From assembly GCF_006738645.1 (NCBI RefSeq), contig NZ_AP019700.1, forward strand, positions 5,576,351-5,640,350: DNA of 64,000 bases. The letters are read 5' to 3'. The notes beneath the pieces were generated by a model. The model made no database searches. It saw only the letters and a list, made by a program, of their open reading frames with translations, and was not told where the DNA came from. The stretch is from Stella humosa (GTDB taxonomy: Bacteria > Pseudomonadota > Alphaproteobacteria > ATCC43930 > Allostellaceae). Positions 2,015-23,591 of the stretch are shown here, piece after piece (within the stretch, counting starts at the first letter, position 1; the number at the start of each line of letters is the position of its first letter). A program made the position numbers and the translations under genes.

Positions 2015-3031
2015 ATGCGCGCCATAGTTCCCTTCATCCTGCTCGTCATTCCGCTGATCGAGATCGCCCTTTTCGTCGTCGTCGGCGATGTGATCGGCCT
2101 GTGGCCGACGCTGGCCGCGACACTGCTGGCGGCCGTCGTCGGGGTCGTGCTGATCCGCGGCCGGGGCCGGGCCGCCTTCGAGCGCCTGCGCCCCGGGCAA
2201 GGCCCCGCGGCCGTGCCGATCGGGTCGGTAATCGACGGCGCTGCCGTGGTGATCGCCGGCATGCTGCTGCTGATACCGGGCTTCCTGACCGACCTGCTGG
2301 GCGTGTCGCTGCTATTGCCGCCGGTTCGCCGGCGTCTGGGCCGGGTGATTGGCCAACGCTTTCGCATGGCGGCCGGCCCGTCCCCTTTCGGCGACCCGGG
2401 TTTCGGGCAATCCGGATTCGGGCAATCCGGATTCGGGCAGGCGGGCTTCGACCCCGGCGGTTTCCCGTCCGCCGCCGGCCCCGTCATCGAGGGCGAGGCG
2501 GTGGTCGTGCGCGATCCGCCAGCACCGCCGGCAGCCGCGGCCGACGATCCATCCCATCCACCGCGCGTGGCCCCGCCCCGCCCGCGCGACCCACCCCTGA
2601 CCGGAACCGACCATGATCCTCGTGCGACACGGCCAATCGGAGTTCAATGCCGCCTTCTCGGTGACCAGGGTCGATCCCGGCATCCAGGACCCACGCCTGA
2701 CCGAGGAGGGAAAGCGGCAGGCGGCCCAGGCAGCCGCGACCCTGGCCGCAATGCCGATCCGCCATCTGGTCGCCAGCCCGTACACGCGCGCGATCGAGAC
2801 GGCCGAGATCATCGGCGAGGCCCTGGGCCTGCCGCTGACCATCGATCCGATCGTCGGCGAACGCGCCGCCTTCGTCTGCGACGTCGGCTCGATGACCAGC
2901 ATCCTCAGGACGCGCTGGCCGCATCTGGGGCTGGATCACATGGACGAGCAGTGGTGGCCGACCATGGAGGAGCCGGAGCACGCCATGCTGGACCGCTGCG
3001 CCCGCTTTCGCACGGCCATGCAGGCACGTGA
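2015..3031 (+). CDS. fxsA: FxsA family membrane protein with abnormally long 3' reading frame
   Basis: Residues 1-125 form a normal FxsA domain: membrane segments at about 5-30 and 75-95, with conserved IPLIEIALFVVVG and LLLIPGFLTDLLG. FxsA-family proteins are small inner-membrane proteins; E. coli FxsA relieves phage T7 exclusion. A Gly/Phe-rich repeat (FGQSG) and a typical tail motif VIEGEAVVV follow near residue 165. After that no stop appears, and the frame runs 419 nt into the next gene, giving 338 codons where about 160-190 are expected. The extra 140 residues are Arg/Pro-rich and look like out-of-frame translation. The true stop is probably near 2600-2616, reached by a one-base shift. 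The domain call is firm; the 3' end is not. Confidence 0.7.
   Translation: MRAIVPFILLVIPLIEIALFVVVGDVIGLWPTLAATLLAAVVGVVLIRGRGRAAFERLRPGQGPAAVPIGSVIDGAAVVIAGMLLLIPGFLTDLLGVSLLLPPVRRRLGRVIGQRFRMAAGPSPFGDPGFGQSGFGQSGFGQAGFDPGGFPSAAGPVIEGEAVVVRDPPAPPAAAADDPSHPPRVAPPRPRDPPLTGTDHDPRATRPIGVQCRLLGDQGRSRHPGPTPDRGGKAAGGPGSRDPGRNADPPSGRQPVHARDRDGRDHRRGPGPAADHRSDRRRTRRLRLRRRLDDQHPQDALAASGAGSHGRAVVADHGGAGARHAGPLRPLSHGHAGT
2402..2446 (+). repeat. 15-bp tandem repeat inside fxsA
   Basis: Two exact copies of TTCGGGCAATCCGGA followed by a third, diverged copy. They encode FGQSG-FGQSG-FGQAG in the cytoplasmic tail of FxsA. The unit is a multiple of three, so copy-number change would keep the frame. Confidence 0.85.
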
Positions 3032-5955: not shown

Positions 5956-6563
5956 CGTTCGACCACCCCATGGCCCCGCAGGAATTCGAGAAGCGGCAAC
6001 AGCGGCAGGCCGAGGATCGCGGAATGGTCCCCGGCGATCGTCGAGAAGAGCTGGACGCCAGGGCCTTCCAGCCGGTAGCCGCCGACCGATACCAGCATCG
6101 CCCTGCCTTCGAGCGCGATATAAGCGTCCAGAAAGGCGTCGGAGAAGGCCCGCATCGTCAGCCGAGGCGCCTCGCGATGGTGCCAGAGCCGCTGCCCGTC
6201 GCGCACCACGCACACGGCCGTGGCAAGGCGGTGCTCGCGGCCGCGCAAGGCCACCAGATGGGCCCGGGCGTGGTCGAGGTCGGGCGGCTTGTCGAACCAG
6301 ACCCCGGCGCAATCGAGGATCTGGTCGGCACCGATCACCAGCGCTCCCGGCACCTTGCGGGAGACCCGCATGGCCTTGGCCTCGGCCAGCGCATCGGCGG
6401 TGGTCGCCGAATCGGCGCCGGCCGCACGCATGCTGTGCTTGATCTCGTCCTCGTCCACGGCAGATACGACGGTGGAGAAGGGGACGCCCGCTGCTGCCAG
6501 GAGCTGCCCTCGGGTCGGGCTGGCGGAGGCCAGGACCAGTGGCGGCGCTTCGGGCATCGTCAT
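5952..6563 (-). CDS. maf: Maf family nucleotide pyrophosphatase
   Basis: 203 residues of the Maf/HAM1-like fold, which hydrolyses non-canonical or modified nucleoside triphosphates. Motifs seen are LASASPTRGQLL at the N-terminus, EDEIKHSMRA, the central GADQILDC, and YRLEGPGVQLFSTIAGD near the C-terminus. The ATG at 6563 makes a 4-nt ATGA overlap with the end of ppsR. Family members differ between dTTP/UTP and m7GTP as substrate, and I cannot tell which applies. Confidence 0.9.
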   Translation of the reverse strand: MTMPEAPPLVLASASPTRGQLLAAAGVPFSTVVSAVDEDEIKHSMRAAGADSATTADALAEAKAMRVSRKVPGALVIGADQILDCAGVWFDKPPDLDHARAHLVALRGREHRLATAVCVVRDGQRLWHHREAPRLTMRAFSDAFLDAYIALEGRAMLVSVGGYRLEGPGVQLFSTIAGDHSAILGLPLLPLLEFLRGHGVVER

Positions 6564-7396
6564 TGCGGGCCGGCGGCGCTGGCCATGCCCTGACGGCGCG
6601 CCAGCAACTGCATGATGGTGGCCGCCGTCTCCTCGATCGACCGGCGGGTCACGTCGATGACCGGCCAGCGATGTTCGGCACACATGCGCCGCACGAAGGC
6701 GATCTCCTGGCGCACCGCTTCCAGGTCGACATAGTCGCCGCCCTCATGGTCCTGGATCATGCGCAGCCGCTGCCGGCGGATCTGCACCAGGCTCTCCGGG
6801 TCCTTGGTCAGGCCGACGACCAGGGGGTGGGTGGTCGTGAACAGCTCGTCCGGCGGCGGCACGCCGGGCACGATCGGCACATTGGCAGCCTTGATGCCGC
6901 GGTTGGCCAGGTACATCGCAGTCGGTGTCTTCGATGTGCGGGAGACCCCGGTCAGCACGACATCGGCGGCGTCGAGGTTCCACAGCCCCTGCCCGTCATC
7001 ATGGACGAGCGCGTAGGTCATCGCGTCGATGCGATGGAAATACTCGGCGTCCAGCGCGTGCTGCCGCCCGGGCTGGCCGCGGCTGCGGCGGCCGAGATAG
7101 CTGGCGAAGGCGCCGATGATCGGATCCAGGATCGGGATCGTCGGCACCTGCAGGCGACGACAGGCACCTTGCAACAACCCGCGCAGCGTCTCGTCGACCA
7201 GGGTGAAGAGGACGACGCCCGGGTTGGCCTCGATCCCGGCGATCACCCGCTCGACCTGGGTGCGCGTGCGCACCATCGACCAGGTGTGCTCGACCGGATC
7301 GACGTCCTCGAACTGCGACACGCACGCTCGTGCCAGGCCGTGGACCGTCTCGCCGGTGGCGTCGGATACGAGATGGAGATGGAAGGTCTTGCTCAC
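6560..7396 (-). CDS. ppsR: Pyruvate,water dikinase/PPDK regulatory protein (DUF299)
   Basis: Bifunctional kinase/pyrophosphorylase that switches PEP synthase or pyruvate phosphate dikinase off and on by phosphorylating an active-site threonine. The P-loop is GVSRTSKTPTAMYLA, and PTIPILDPIIGAFASYLG is conserved. The start is GTG at 7396 (VSKTFHLHLVSDATGET), preceded by AGGTAGG about 10 nt upstream. 278 residues is typical. The frame continues upstream to 7717, but that part lies in the intergenic region and is unlike the family. This is the RP001/DUF299 gene that borders oriC in Caulobacter and Rickettsia. Confidence 0.93.
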   Translation of the reverse strand: MSKTFHLHLVSDATGETVHGLARACVSQFEDVDPVEHTWSMVRTRTQVERVIAGIEANPGVVLFTLVDETLRGLLQGACRRLQVPTIPILDPIIGAFASYLGRRSRGQPGRQHALDAEYFHRIDAMTYALVHDDGQGLWNLDAADVVLTGVSRTSKTPTAMYLANRGIKAANVPIVPGVPPPDELFTTTHPLVVGLTKDPESLVQIRRQRLRMIQDHEGGDYVDLEAVRQEIAFVRRMCAEHRWPVIDVTRRSIEETAATIMQLLARRQGMASAAGPQ

Positions 7397-7768
7397 CGGG
7401 GGGAGCCTACCTGCTTTGCCGGCCCTGTGGACAGTCTGATGGCTCGAAGCTGCCGTCCCGAAGCATCCCCGCTGGCGGCAATCCATGCCCCGACATGCGG
7501 TGGCGGGGATAGAATCCCCCAGCGTCCCCTGCATGTCTGATAGCTGTAGCCCGCTTAGGATATCCACGGGATTCACAGCCCGAGCTTTATCGAAGCTACC
7601 AGAGTTGCAGGTGCGGTTATCGACTCCCGAAGCGGCGGTCCGCCCAGACTGTGGACAACTGGGGGGGTGCGGCATCGCAACGGTAATCCCCAGCATCCAC
7701 CGCACTGCTACAACCACTACCGTTTCAAAGGATTCGTTCTAGAAGGTAGTAGGAAGCAGGGGACGGGG
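7397..7768. other. oriC: Putative chromosomal replication origin (oriC)
   Basis: A 372-nt gene-free gap between divergent ppsR (DUF299) and hemE. In Caulobacter crescentus and Rickettsia the origin lies between the same two genes. Against the DnaA box TTATCCACA (either strand) I find TGTGGACAA at 7650-7658 (one mismatch). Five-to-seven-match neighbours include TGTGGACAG at 7426-7434, ATATCCACG at 7560-7568, GGATTCACA at about 7569-7577 and TTATCGACT at 7617-7625, each with two mismatches. Housekeeping genes lead away from the gap on both sides, and two parS sites lie 12-14 kb away. No TTAA-N7-TTAA CtrA site is seen. The AT-rich unwinding element is not obvious. The hemE and ppsR promoters must also be here. 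Confidence 0.68.
7650..7658 (-). promoter_or_regulatory. Best DnaA box in the putative origin
   Basis: TGTGGACAA on the plus strand, i.e. TTGTCCACA on the minus strand, differs from the consensus TTATCCACA at one position. It is the strongest of about five DnaA-box-like 9-mers in the ppsR-hemE gap. Confidence 0.5.
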
Positions 7769-8806
7769 ATGAAATCGACCGGCAAGCCGCTCTATGACGC
7801 TCTGAAGGGAGTCGCCCAGGCGACGCCACCCATCTGGTTCATGCGCCAGGCCGGCCGGTACCTGCCGGAGTACCGCCAGCTTCGGGCAAAGGCCGGCAGC
7901 TTCATGCAGCTCTGCCTCGATCCCGAGAAGGCAGCCACGGTGACGCTGCAGCCGATCGACCGCTTTGGAATGGATGGGGCGATCCTCTTCTCGGATATCC
8001 TGATCGTGCCGTACGGCCTGGGGACGGACGTGTCCTTCCGGGAAGGCGAGGGTCCCGTCCTGCCCAAGCTCCGTCCAGGCGATGGCCTGCCGGTGTTCGA
8101 TCCCGCGGCGTTCGCCGAGCGCACCGCGCCGATCATGGAGACGGTGCGCCTGGTGGCCGGACGGATGCCGGGGAGCACCACCCTGATCGGCTTTGCCGGG
8201 GCGCCCTGGACCGTGGCGACCTACATGGTGGAGGGCGGGTCCAGCCGGGATTTCTCTGCCACCAAGCGCTGGGCATACGGGCATCCGGGTGAGTTCCAGA
8301 CGCTGATCGACCGGATCGTCGAGGCGACGATCGCCTATCTCCGGGCGCAGCTCGACGCGGGGGCCGAGGCCCTCCAGCTATTCGACTCCTGGGCGGGCGT
8401 ATTGCCGCCCGAGGCGTTCCGCCGATGGAGCATCGAGCCCGCCGCGCGGATAGTCGAAGCCCTTCGCCAATCCCATCCGGGGGTTCCGCTGATCGGCTTT
8501 CCGCGTGGTGCGGGTGCCTCGATCGTGGACTATGCGGAGGCGACCGGCGTGGATGCCGTCAGCCTGGATACGGCCGTACCACTTGCCTGGGCGCGGCACT
8601 GGATGCCGGGGGTATGCCTGCAAGGCAATCTCGATCCGCAATGGCTGGTGGTCGGCGACGACGGTATGGCGGCCGAGGTGGAGCGGATTCGCGATGCCAT
8701 GACCGGAGCCCCCTTCGTCTTCAACCTCGGCCACGGCATCGTGCCAGAGACACCGCCCGAGCATGTCGGGCGCGCGGTCGCCGTGCTGCGCGGCGAAGGA
8801 GTCTAG
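7769..8806 (+). CDS. hemE: Uroporphyrinogen decarboxylase
   Basis: Decarboxylates the four acetate side chains of uroporphyrinogen III to coproporphyrinogen III in haem synthesis. 345 residues. The family signature PIWFMRQAGRYLPEYR is at about 17-32, and the second signature GFAGAPWTVATYMVEG at about 135-150. The ATG at 7769 follows a GGGGACGGGG purine run and puts the signature at the usual distance from the N-terminus. First of the hemE-hemH-hemJ operon; hemH begins 2 nt after its stop. Confidence 0.96.
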   Translation: MKSTGKPLYDALKGVAQATPPIWFMRQAGRYLPEYRQLRAKAGSFMQLCLDPEKAATVTLQPIDRFGMDGAILFSDILIVPYGLGTDVSFREGEGPVLPKLRPGDGLPVFDPAAFAERTAPIMETVRLVAGRMPGSTTLIGFAGAPWTVATYMVEGGSSRDFSATKRWAYGHPGEFQTLIDRIVEATIAYLRAQLDAGAEALQLFDSWAGVLPPEAFRRWSIEPAARIVEALRQSHPGVPLIGFPRGAGASIVDYAEATGVDAVSLDTAVPLAWARHWMPGVCLQGNLDPQWLVVGDDGMAAEVERIRDAMTGAPFVFNLGHGIVPETPPEHVGRAVAVLRGEGV

Positions 8807-11784: not shown

Positions 11785-11812
11785 TGGAGCGCGTTCAGCC
11801 GAACGCGCTCCA
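11785..11812. terminator. Shared hairpin ending rho and the convergent TSUP gene
   Basis: A perfect 12-bp stem, TGGAGCGCGTTC (11785-11796) with GAACGCGCTCCA (11801-11812), and loop AGCC. It begins 8 nt after the rho stop and contains the stop codon of the opposing gene (11795-11797). There is no U-tract. The symmetry suggests a bidirectional terminator. Confidence 0.6.
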
Positions 11813-12616
11813 CAGCATGCGCAGGGAGACGATGGCGAGGAACGCCGCGAAGACGCGGCGCATGGCGGCCTGCGGAATCGCATGCGCCAGCCGGGCCCCG
11901 ACCGGCGCCATCAGCGTCTGGGTCGGCGCCAGCATGATGAAGCCAACCAGGCTGACATAGCCAAGCGACCAGGGCAGGCGGTCGGGCACGCCCCAGCCGG
12001 CGATGGCGAAGCCGATCGCGCCCGGAATACCGACGATCAGTCCCACGGCCGACGACGTGCCGATGGCGCGGCGGATCGGATAGTTGAAGAGCGTCAGCAG
12101 GGGCACCGCCAGGGTGCCGCCGCCGATCCCCATGATCGCCGAAAAGCCACCAATGCCGACGGCCATGGGGATGCGGGCAGCCCCTTCGGGCAGGCGATCG
12201 GCGACGCGTGCCTCGCCGCTGACCACCGCCATGTGGATCGCGACCACTAGAGCGACCAGGCCGAACACCGCAGTCAGGACGGCCGGCTTGGCCCCGCCGC
12301 CCAGCAGGATGCCGACGCAGGCACCGGTCAGGATCCACGGACCCCAGGACCGCAGGAACTGGTCGTCGACGGCGCCCTTGGCCCGGTGCGAGCGCATGGA
12401 GTTCCAGGCCGTCGGTATCAGCGTCGCCAGGGAGGTCGCGACGGCGGTGTGCATGCGGACCGACTCGTCCACATCCAGCAGGCCCAGGGCCATGTAGAGC
12501 ATGGGCACGATGACGATGCCGCCGCCGACCCCGAGCAGGCCGGCCAGGAAGCCGGCGAAGGCGCCGACGAGCGCGGCACAGAGTGCCAGCGTCACGAGAA
12601 ACAACGGATCTTGCAT
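11795..12616 (-). CDS. TSUP (TauE/SafE) family membrane permease
   Basis: 273 residues with about eight hydrophobic segments arranged as two similar halves. Each half carries the family glycine-rich motif: FLAGLLGVGGGIVIVPML (about 22-40) and IMGIGGGTLAVPLLT (about 160-174). TSUP members export or take up small anions such as sulfite, sulfonates or carboxylates; the substrate is unknown here. The last codons lie inside a hairpin shared with rho. Confidence 0.85.
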   Translation of the reverse strand: MQDPLFLVTLALCAALVGAFAGFLAGLLGVGGGIVIVPMLYMALGLLDVDESVRMHTAVATSLATLIPTAWNSMRSHRAKGAVDDQFLRSWGPWILTGACVGILLGGGAKPAVLTAVFGLVALVVAIHMAVVSGEARVADRLPEGAARIPMAVGIGGFSAIMGIGGGTLAVPLLTLFNYPIRRAIGTSSAVGLIVGIPGAIGFAIAGWGVPDRLPWSLGYVSLVGFIMLAPTQTLMAPVGARLAHAIPQAAMRRVFAAFLAIVSLRMLWSAFG

Positions 12617-19345: not shown

Positions 19346-19361
19346 TGTTTCACGTGAAACA
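19346..19361. other. parS: parS centromere site 1
   Basis: TGTTTCACGTGAAACA, an exact match to the 16-bp palindromic parS consensus recognised by chromosomal ParB. It begins at the base after the mnmE stop codon, in the mnmE-mnmG gap. It lies about 11.8 kb from the putative origin and 3.4 kb from parB. Confidence 0.96.
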
Positions 19362-21321: not shown

Positions 21322-21938
21322 CCAGTGCTGCCCTTACAGCCAGCAGCAATGGCGCGCCGGACAATGTTTCACGTGAAACACGCGAGCGGCTGGCCATCTA
21401 TGTCGACCTGCTCGGCCGCTGGAACGCGCGCATCAACCTAGTGTCGGCGAGCACCATGGCAGATCCCTGGCAGCGCCACATCTGGGACAGCGCGCAACTC
21501 CTGCCGGACGCTCTGGCGGTCGGCGGCCGGATGGCCGACCTCGGTTCAGGGGCCGGACTGCCTGGGTTGATCCTGGCCATCATGGGTCGGCCGACGGTCG
21601 CTCTGCTGGAATCCGACCAGCGCAAATGCGCCTTCCTGCGCGAAGCCGCCCGGGCAACGGCGACCGAGGTGATCATCCTGCAAGGGCGGATGGAGGCCCT
21701 GCCGCCCGCTGACGCCACCTTGGTCACCGCCCGCGCCTGCGCGCCGCTGGACCGCTTGCTGGCCCATGCCATGCGGCACCTGGTTGCCGGCGGCACGGCC
21801 CTGTTCCTCAAGGGTCGATCGGCCGACGAGGAGATCGCCGAGGCGCGGAAGACCTGGACCTTCGACGTCCACCGCCGCCCCAGCACCACGGATCCCGAAG
21901 CCTGCGTCCTGCGCCTGGAGAACATTTCCCGTGGCTGA
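21318..21938 (+). CDS. rsmG: 16S rRNA (guanine527-N7)-methyltransferase
   Basis: 206 residues. It methylates G527 of 16S rRNA; loss gives low-level streptomycin resistance in other bacteria. The SAM-binding block is [19 protein letters not shown] (about 74-92), and [13 protein letters not shown] is conserved before it. Residues 16-21 (NVSRET) are encoded by a perfect parS site, so the N-terminal sequence is partly dictated by the DNA site. It starts by ATGA overlap with mnmG and overlaps parA by 8 nt at its end. Confidence 0.95.
21365..21380. other. parS: parS centromere site 2, inside rsmG
   Basis: A second exact TGTTTCACGTGAAACA, within the rsmG coding sequence and about 2.0 kb from site 1. 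It lies 566 nt upstream of parA. In many bacteria parS sites fall inside this gene cluster, so ParB can bind here and spread over its own operon. Confidence 0.96.
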
Positions 21939-22731
21939 GCCGTCCATTCGCTACCCGCGCCGGGTCATCGCCGTCGCCAACCAGAAGGGCGGGGTGGGCA
22001 AGACGACGACGGTCATCAACCTGGCCACGGCATTGGCGGCGGTCGGACATCAGGTCCTCGTGATCGATTTCGACCCCCAGGGCAATGCGTCGACCGGCCT
22101 GGGCGTGCCGCCGGCAGAGCGCCAGCGCAGTATCTACCAGGTGCTGACCGGCGAGCTCAGCCTGGACGAAGCGACCATGGCGACCCAGGTTCCCAACCTG
22201 CAGCTCGTGCCGGCGACGCGCGACCTCGTCGGTGCCGAGGTCGAGTTGATGGACGGGGAGCGGCGCGAGGCCCGGCTGCGCGACGCGCTCTTCGAAGGGG
22301 CGGCCGACATCGAGTTCGTGCTGCTGGATTGCCCGCCGTCGCTCGGCATGCTGACGGTGAACGGCCTGGTGGCGGCAGACGAGGTGCTGGTGCCGCTGCA
22401 GTGCGAGTTCCTGGCGCTGGAGGGGTTGAGCCACCTCCTGCATACGGTCGAGCGCATCCGCCGCAACCTCAACCCGCATCTGGCCATCCGCGGCATCGTC
22501 CTGACCATGTTCGACAAGCGCAACAACCTGTCCGAGGTGGTGGCCGAGGATGTCCGGGCGAACCTGGGCGGCCGGGTGTTCGATACCGTGATTCCGCGCA
22601 ACGTCCGGATCTCTGAAGCGCCGTCCCATGGCCTGCCGGTGCTGCTCTACGACTGGCGATCGACCGGGGCCCAGGCGTACATGCAACTTGCCCGGGAACT
22701 ACTCGGGCGATACGGAAAGGAAGCCGCATGA
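21931..22731 (+). CDS. parA: Chromosome partitioning ATPase ParA
   Basis: Nucleoid-bound ATPase that moves ParB-parS complexes to segregate origins. 266 residues. The deviant Walker A is NQKGGVGKTTT near residues 16-26, Walker A' is VIDFDPQGNASTGLG, and Walker B is VLLDCPPSLG. The start is GTG at 21931, with GGAG about 10 nt upstream, overlapping rsmG by 8 nt. No ATG gives the family N-terminus. Short N-terminus without an HTH, so it is the chromosomal (small ParA) type. Confidence 0.96.
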   Translation: MAEPSIRYPRRVIAVANQKGGVGKTTTVINLATALAAVGHQVLVIDFDPQGNASTGLGVPPAERQRSIYQVLTGELSLDEATMATQVPNLQLVPATRDLVGAEVELMDGERREARLRDALFEGAADIEFVLLDCPPSLGMLTVNGLVAADEVLVPLQCEFLALEGLSHLLHTVERIRRNLNPHLAIRGIVLTMFDKRNNLSEVVAEDVRANLGGRVFDTVIPRNVRISEAPSHGLPVLLYDWRSTGAQAYMQLARELLGRYGKEAA

Positions 22732-23591
22732 GCCGCGACGCGATCAAGCGCAAGCCGCTGGGCCGGGGCTTGTCCGCGCTGCTCGGCGAAACGCCGGAAC
22801 TGCCGCCGGAACACGCGCCGGACAGCAGCGCGTTGCGGACCGTGCCGATCGAGCAGCTTCGCCCGGGCCGCTATCAGCCGCGGCGACAGTTCGACGAGGT
22901 GGCGATGGCCGCCCTGGTGGAATCCATCCGCGAGAAGGGCATCCTGCAGCCGATCCTGGTCCGCCGCCATGGCGAGGACGGGTGGGAGATCGTCGCGGGC
23001 GAGCGCCGCTGGCGCGCCGCCCAGGCGGCCGGCATCCATGCGGTCCCGGTTCTGATCCAGGACATGGACGACCGCGCGGCGCTGGAGATCGCGCTCGTAG
23101 AGAACGTCCAGCGGCAGGACCTGACGGCGCTCGAGGAGGCCGAGGGCTACCAGCGCCTGATCGACGAGTTCGGCCACCGCCAGGAGGACCTGGCCAAGGC
23201 CGTCGGCAAGAGCCGCAGCCATATCGCCAACACGCTGCGCCTTCTCCAGTTGCCGCCGGACGTGCGGCGTCTCGTGCAGGATGGCGCCCTGTCGGCCGGA
23301 CACGGTCGCGCCCTGCTGGGGGCATCGGAGGCGGGTGAGCTGGCGCGGCGGGTCGTGGCCCAGGGCCTCAATGTCCGCCAGACCGAAAAGCTGGCGACGG
23401 CTGCCAAGGACAAGCCGGCCCGGGCGCCCGCGCCGGAATCGGACGCCGACACGCGTGCCCTGGAGCGCAGCCTGGAGGCGCAGCTCGGCCTGCGCGTCAA
23501 TATCGAGCATGGCGGCCGCGGCGGCCGCCTGGTGCTGCACTATGGTTCGCTCGACCAGCTCGACGAAGTCCTGAAGCGCCTGGCGCGCTGA
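22728..23591 (+). CDS. parB: Chromosome partitioning protein ParB
   Basis: CTP-dependent DNA clamp that loads at parS. 287 residues. The N-terminus KRKPLGRGLSALLG is the ParA-contact peptide. The ParB/Srx CTPase fold has IEQLRPGRYQPRRQFD, IREKGILQPILVRR and GERRWRAAQAAG. The HTH with GKSRSHIANTLRLLQLP binds parS. The C-terminal dimerisation domain ends the protein. The ATG overlaps parA as ATGA. Both parS sites of this window lie just upstream. Confidence 0.96.
   Translation: MSRDAIKRKPLGRGLSALLGETPELPPEHAPDSSALRTVPIEQLRPGRYQPRRQFDEVAMAALVESIREKGILQPILVRRHGEDGWEIVAGERRWRAAQAAGIHAVPVLIQDMDDRAALEIALVENVQRQDLTALEEAEGYQRLIDEFGHRQEDLAKAVGKSRSHIANTLRLLQLPPDVRRLVQDGALSAGHGRALLGASEAGELARRVVAQGLNVRQTEKLATAAKDKPARAPAPESDADTRALERSLEAQLGLRVNIEHGGRGGRLVLHYGSLDQLDEVLKRLAR

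Follow-up and report, generated by a model that had tools for sequence, protein, structure and literature searches.

Where does replication of the Stella humosa chromosome begin? The chromosome is one contig of 5,832,650 bp that starts at dnaA. Its putative origin had been placed by a first-pass annotation in the gap between ppsR and hemE. This gap lies 249 kb from dnaA. We followed up this proposal computationally in the 64-kb window that contains the gap (bases 5576351-5640350) and elsewhere on the chromosome. The switch in strand composition, the clustering of DnaA boxes, the footprints shared between species, the parS sites and the synteny all support it, and we conclude with a probability of roughly 95% that this gap serves S. 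humosa as its single chromosomal replication origin (oriC). The genus Stella has since been renamed Allostella (PMC12488387).

The ppsR-hemE gap and its surroundings

The PF03618 and PF01208 matches and the start codons of the two flanking genes bear out that the gap lies between DUF299/ppsR and hemE (Table 1). The genes stand head to head, 372 bp apart, and hemE/COG1806-type origins are expected to occupy more than 300 bp. Origins of this type are also expected to be AT-richer than their genome, and the GC content of the gap is 61% vs 70% in the genome (AT 39% vs about 30%). The same ppsR-hemE arrangement is common to all four Stella species and is also found in most of the relatives checked. 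An Rfam search of the gap returned no match, the one sub-threshold microRNA hit being a chance match inside hemE. Core genes on both sides had been described as pointing away from the gap. This holds for ppsR, maf and coaE (minus strand) on the left and for hemE, hemH, hemJ, rho, mnmE, mnmG, rsmG, parA and parB (plus strand) on the right, but not for fxsA, which lies on the plus strand at 2015-3031, nor for a TauE-family gene on the minus strand at 11795-12616.

Table 1 Features of the S. humosa ppsR-hemE locus, with positions counted from the first base of the 64-kb window.
Feature	Position	Strand	Remarks
ppsR (COG1806/DUF299)	6560-7396	minus	PF03618, E 1.1e-92; GTG start at 7396; left flank
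Putative oriC	7397-7768		Whole ppsR-hemE intergenic gap; genome 5583747-5584118; 372 bp
DnaA box CTGTCCACA	7426-7434	minus	2 mismatches; position kept in 4/4 Stella
GANTC sites (CcrM-type methylation motif)	7512-7735		Four sites; starts 7512, 7570, 7622, 7731
DnaA box ATATCCACG	7560-7568	plus	2 mismatches; position not conserved at threshold used
DnaA box TTATCGACT	7617-7625	plus	2 mismatches; kept in 3/4 Stella
DnaA box TTGTCCACA	7650-7658	minus	1 mismatch; kept in 4/4 Stella
DnaA box TAATCCCCA	7684-7692	plus	2 mismatches; first of tandem pair beside AT-rich stretch; kept in 3/4 Stella
Weak DnaA box GCATCCACC	7693-7701	plus	3 mismatches; second of tandem pair; 6 nt ahead of CTA repeats
Degenerate DnaA-trio-like element CTACAACCACTACC	7708-7721	plus	CTA = complement of 3'-GAT-5'
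Candidate DNA unwinding element	7712-7753		Lowest-GC stretch; 40% GC in 40 bp
hemE (uroporphyrinogen decarboxylase)	7769-8806	plus	PF01208, E 4.3e-116; ATG start at 7769; right flank
parS TGTTTCACGTGAAACA	19346-19361		Perfect
parS	21365-21380		Perfect; inside rsmG
parA	21766-22731	plus	Start not fixed
parB	22728-23591	plus

DnaA boxes cluster in the gap and are conserved

The gap was said to contain one DnaA-box-like 9-mer at one mismatch and about four more at two, and this count proved exact (1 + 4). The five boxes with at most two mismatches compare with 0.59 expected when the dinucleotides of the gap are shuffled, and 0 of 300 shuffles reached this number; under the stricter limit of one mismatch, one box is seen vs 0.03 expected (P=0.033). 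Across the 64-kb window four one-mismatch boxes are present vs 2.3 expected, and a single such box is unremarkable. The notable feature is therefore the clustering of DnaA boxes rather than the lone one-mismatch box. No exact TTATCCACA or TTATNCACA box occurs in the gap. The box-density check that had been proposed was carried out on 1.63 Mb, about a third of the genome, within which 5.396-5.833 Mb was read completely, and the gap obtained the second-highest box score of this sample.

Four of the boxes (7426, 7617, 7650 and 7684) are aligned in at least three of the four Stella species; 500 column shuffles gave a mean of 0.004 such conserved boxes and never more than one. At 7426-7434 the remaining three Stella species read TTGTCCACA. 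Over a wider range, 26 alphaproteobacterial ppsR-hemE gaps contain 47 boxes with at most one mismatch in 10.8 kb (4.3 per kb), whereas the flanks of these loci have 10 in 89.9 kb (0.11 per kb), a 39-fold difference in density.

Could the gap be just the divergent promoter of ppsR and hemE, with boxes that regulate transcription, while replication in fact begins at another site no more than about 100 kb away? The Stella gaps share a conserved block near the beginning of hemE, the hemE promoter could account for part of the conservation upstream of hemE, and the bootstrap interval of the strand switch described below spans about 190 kb, all of which this reading would accommodate. Against it, box clustering in ppsR-hemE gaps is kept across the class. 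Moreover, the completely read 5.396-5.833 Mb holds no comparable box cluster elsewhere, and in Caulobacter the origin has been mapped to the hemE/COG1806 gap (PMC1914354). We consider a promoter function alone very improbable.

The strand switch maps to the ppsR-hemE gap

Cumulative GC skew had been suggested as a check on the location of the origin, and its outcome was divided: raw GC skew fits best at about 5.42 Mb and not at the gap, whereas the switch corrected for gene strand falls exactly at ppsR-hemE. The best fits were about 5.77 Mb for AT skew and about 5.455 or 5.815 Mb for KOPS, and these raw signals are too noisy and mutually inconsistent to give an exact origin position. Consequently we used a gene-strand-corrected synonymous-codon test. 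Genes were called by their codon-position GC content, third-position differences between leading and lagging strands were learned in distant arms, and the model was applied to the region that runs from about 4.9 Mb across the zero point to 0.32 Mb. This analysis placed the best leading/lagging switch of S. humosa between the gene midpoints 5583490 (ppsR) and 5584585 (hemE). Retraining on 0.33-2.5 and 3.1-4.9 Mb only, which do not overlap the tested region, gave an identical switch. Because the log-likelihoods are overdispersed, the uncertainty was read from the bootstrap alone, in which training genes and 10-kb blocks were resampled. The 5-95% interval of the switch is 5.555-5.741 Mb, 70% of the bootstraps lie within 50 kb, and a minor second mode appears near 5.725-5.75 Mb (88/500). 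When the S. humosa model was applied unchanged to S. vacuolata, the switch fell at the ppsR/hemE gap of that species, and 80% of the bootstrap replicates lay within 50 kb. The orientation of KOPS reverses at some point between about 2.74 and 2.81 Mb, which makes the two arms near-equal, about 3.0 and 2.8 Mb. Synonymous-codon strand bias can thus narrow an origin down to one intergenic gap where GC skew is too noisy.

Origins linked to dnaA are common in bacteria, and an origin adjoining dnaA (genome position 1, coordinate zero of the deposited record) would fit this general habit. A position near 5.8 Mb is also weakly allowed by the AT skew and KOPS fits. However, a strand-corrected switch at dnaA scores 64-102 log-units worse, depending on settings, and no DnaA box with two mismatches or fewer lies within about 500 bp on either side of the dnaA start. 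In addition, dnaA is only a few bases from an upstream rhodanese-like gene, and the parS sites are about 235 kb away from it. Given the far worse strand-switch score and the absence of boxes around dnaA, we rejected a dnaA-linked origin, which has very little chance of being correct. dnaA is the starting point of the deposited chromosomes of S. humosa, S. vacuolata and Stella sp. ATCC 35155, and the origin inferred here lies about 221-249 kb away from it in all three. Since the S. humosa chromosome was circularised with Circlator (PMC6687932), the start of its record probably reflects an assembly convention.

The top DnaA-box score of the sampled genome belongs to neither locus. At genome 5159211-5159274, between two convergent genes (one symporter-like, the other of 113 aa), four DnaA-box-like sites are packed into 64 bp, one of them perfect, two at one mismatch and one at two. 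The three strongest boxes are kept in S. vacuolata and Stella sp. ATCC 35155, and in all three genomes the cluster or its counterpart is situated to the left of the origin, about 412-425 kb away. An origin at this site would agree with its box score, with its conservation in these two genomes and with raw GC skew, whose favoured range includes it, but the two arms would then measure about 3.4 and 2.4 Mb. The strand-corrected test is 183-252 log-units worse there, and no more than about 1% of the bootstraps place the switch below 5.4 Mb. Furthermore, no parS lies near the cluster, which was not found beside the homologous gene outside the genus. The strand test excludes this cluster as the origin, and we give that assignment practically no weight. 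It is more likely to be a DnaA-titrating or regulatory site, and could act by titrating or reactivating DnaA.

parS sites lie close to the gap

Two perfect parS sites had been reported 12-14 kb to the right of the gap. Both are present, 11.6 and 13.6 kb from it, adjoining mnmG, rsmG, parA and parB, and they are the only ones in the whole genome at two mismatches or fewer. S. vacuolata and two other alphaproteobacteria have a similar pair of parS sites at a distance of about 12-15 kb from hemE; in Stella sp. ATCC 35155 a single parS site, with one mismatch, occurs. As the first-pass annotation had claimed, sequence, synteny and parS placement agree, and all three support the gap as the origin.

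A candidate unwinding element next to hemE

The tandem box pair is followed by CTA triplets and by the lowest-GC stretch of the gap, within which GATTCGTTCTAGAAGGTAGTAGG (7731-7753) is near-identical in the four Stella species. The CTA triplet is complementary to the 3'-GAT-5' DnaA-trio (PMC8235120), and in the C. difficile origin a similar element, CTACTACTATTACTACTA, is found next to boxes (PMC7561715). Tandem boxes, a short spacer, CTA (3'-GAT-5') triplets and AT-rich DNA follow one another in the same order in the bacterial origin unwinding system, or BUS, which consists of a DnaA box plus a DnaA-trio (PMC8287927, PMC6669920). For the box-to-trio part of the BUS, a box with at most two mismatches and a spacer of 0-16 are required, and TAATCCCCA is separated from the first CTA by a spacer of 15. 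The published rule further asks for three consecutive N-A-N trios (PMC8287927). Whereas the trios of the BUS are uninterrupted, S. humosa has CTA CAA CCA CTA, provided that the strand complementary to CTA is the one read, and three or more consecutive central-A trios are absent from its presumed bound strand. As these interrupted triplets fail the three-in-a-row rule on that strand, we term the element BUS-like only. The opposite strand carries a four-triplet N-A-N run, TACAACCACTAC, with a spacer of 16; we take this strand not to be the one bound by DnaA.

Several relatives have CTACTACTA-type runs at the corresponding place. In the gaps of relatives the CTA score averages 2.15 on the strand of the CTA element vs 1.43 for the opposite strand and 1.46 for shuffled sequences. 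In ppsR-hemE gaps across alphaproteobacterial families, the region about 50-130 bases ahead of hemE repeatedly carries a CTA-rich, strand-specific element with AT-rich DNA behind it. This recurrence suggests a shared DnaA-trio unwinding module.

By analogy with other bacteria, we infer how the Stella gap might be opened. DnaA would bind the boxes of low and medium affinity throughout the gap, and the tandem pair (7684-7701) would seat a DnaA-ATP filament extending onto the CTA/GAT trinucleotides at 7708-7721. This filament would open the AT-rich stretch just upstream of hemE, where the helicase would load and from which forks would depart both ways, while ParB on parS would segregate the sister origins.

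Comparison with other hemE-type origins

The genes flanking the gap had been described as those that flank the origin in Caulobacter crescentus and Rickettsia, which agrees with the hemE/COG1806 pair of PMC1914354; this pair flanks the experimentally mapped Caulobacter origin (PMC1914354). C. crescentus Cori and the Stella gap have in common the flanking genes, a length of several hundred bp, several DnaA boxes and a composition AT-richer than the genome. They differ in that the Stella gap is without a TTAA-N7-TTAA CtrA site or an IHF consensus and that dnaA is 249 kb away in Stella. More generally, none of the four Stella gaps contains a CtrA site of the form TTAA-N7-TTAA or TTWW-N7-TTWW or an IHF site WATCAN5WTR, and in the absence of these consensus sites the gap is not a CtrA-type Caulobacter origin. 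Among the hemE origins identified in silico (PMC1914354), which include that of Rickettsia prowazekii, the flanking pair in Rickettsia is the one seen in Stella, with a similar gap size (383-395 bp). In contrast, most in silico alphaproteobacterial hemE origins were called with TTATNCACA, CtrA and IHF patterns that the Stella gap does not match, and Stella differs from them by its 70% GC and its more diverged boxes.

Many alphaproteobacteria keep their origin at this place, and the Stella origin is therefore ordinary in kind. No earlier origin call for Stella was found in the literature searched, DoriC aside. As far as this literature goes, the origin is of the known hemE/COG1806 type and new for the star-shaped genus Stella. 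Its place is 249 kb from where the database coordinates suggest, which calls for re-centring analyses of coverage, gene dosage and replichores in Stella.

GANTC sites

The density of GANTC in the gap is 10.8/kb vs 1.08/kb in the sampled genome. As many GANTC are found in 0.4% of all sampled windows and in 2.7% of windows with similar or lower GC, so that the enrichment is suggestive, not compelling. A tentative and rather unlikely proposal is that S. humosa has a hemE-type origin minus CtrA/IHF control, governed by GANTC methylation together with the distal DnaA-binding cluster 425 kb away, which would resemble datA/DARS of E. coli. Each Stella species has 3-5 GANTC sites in its gap, and the site at 7731 lies inside the most conserved block. 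The densest GANTC of the sampled genome, up to nine in 372 bp, occur at genome 5726790-5727440, near the minor bootstrap mode.
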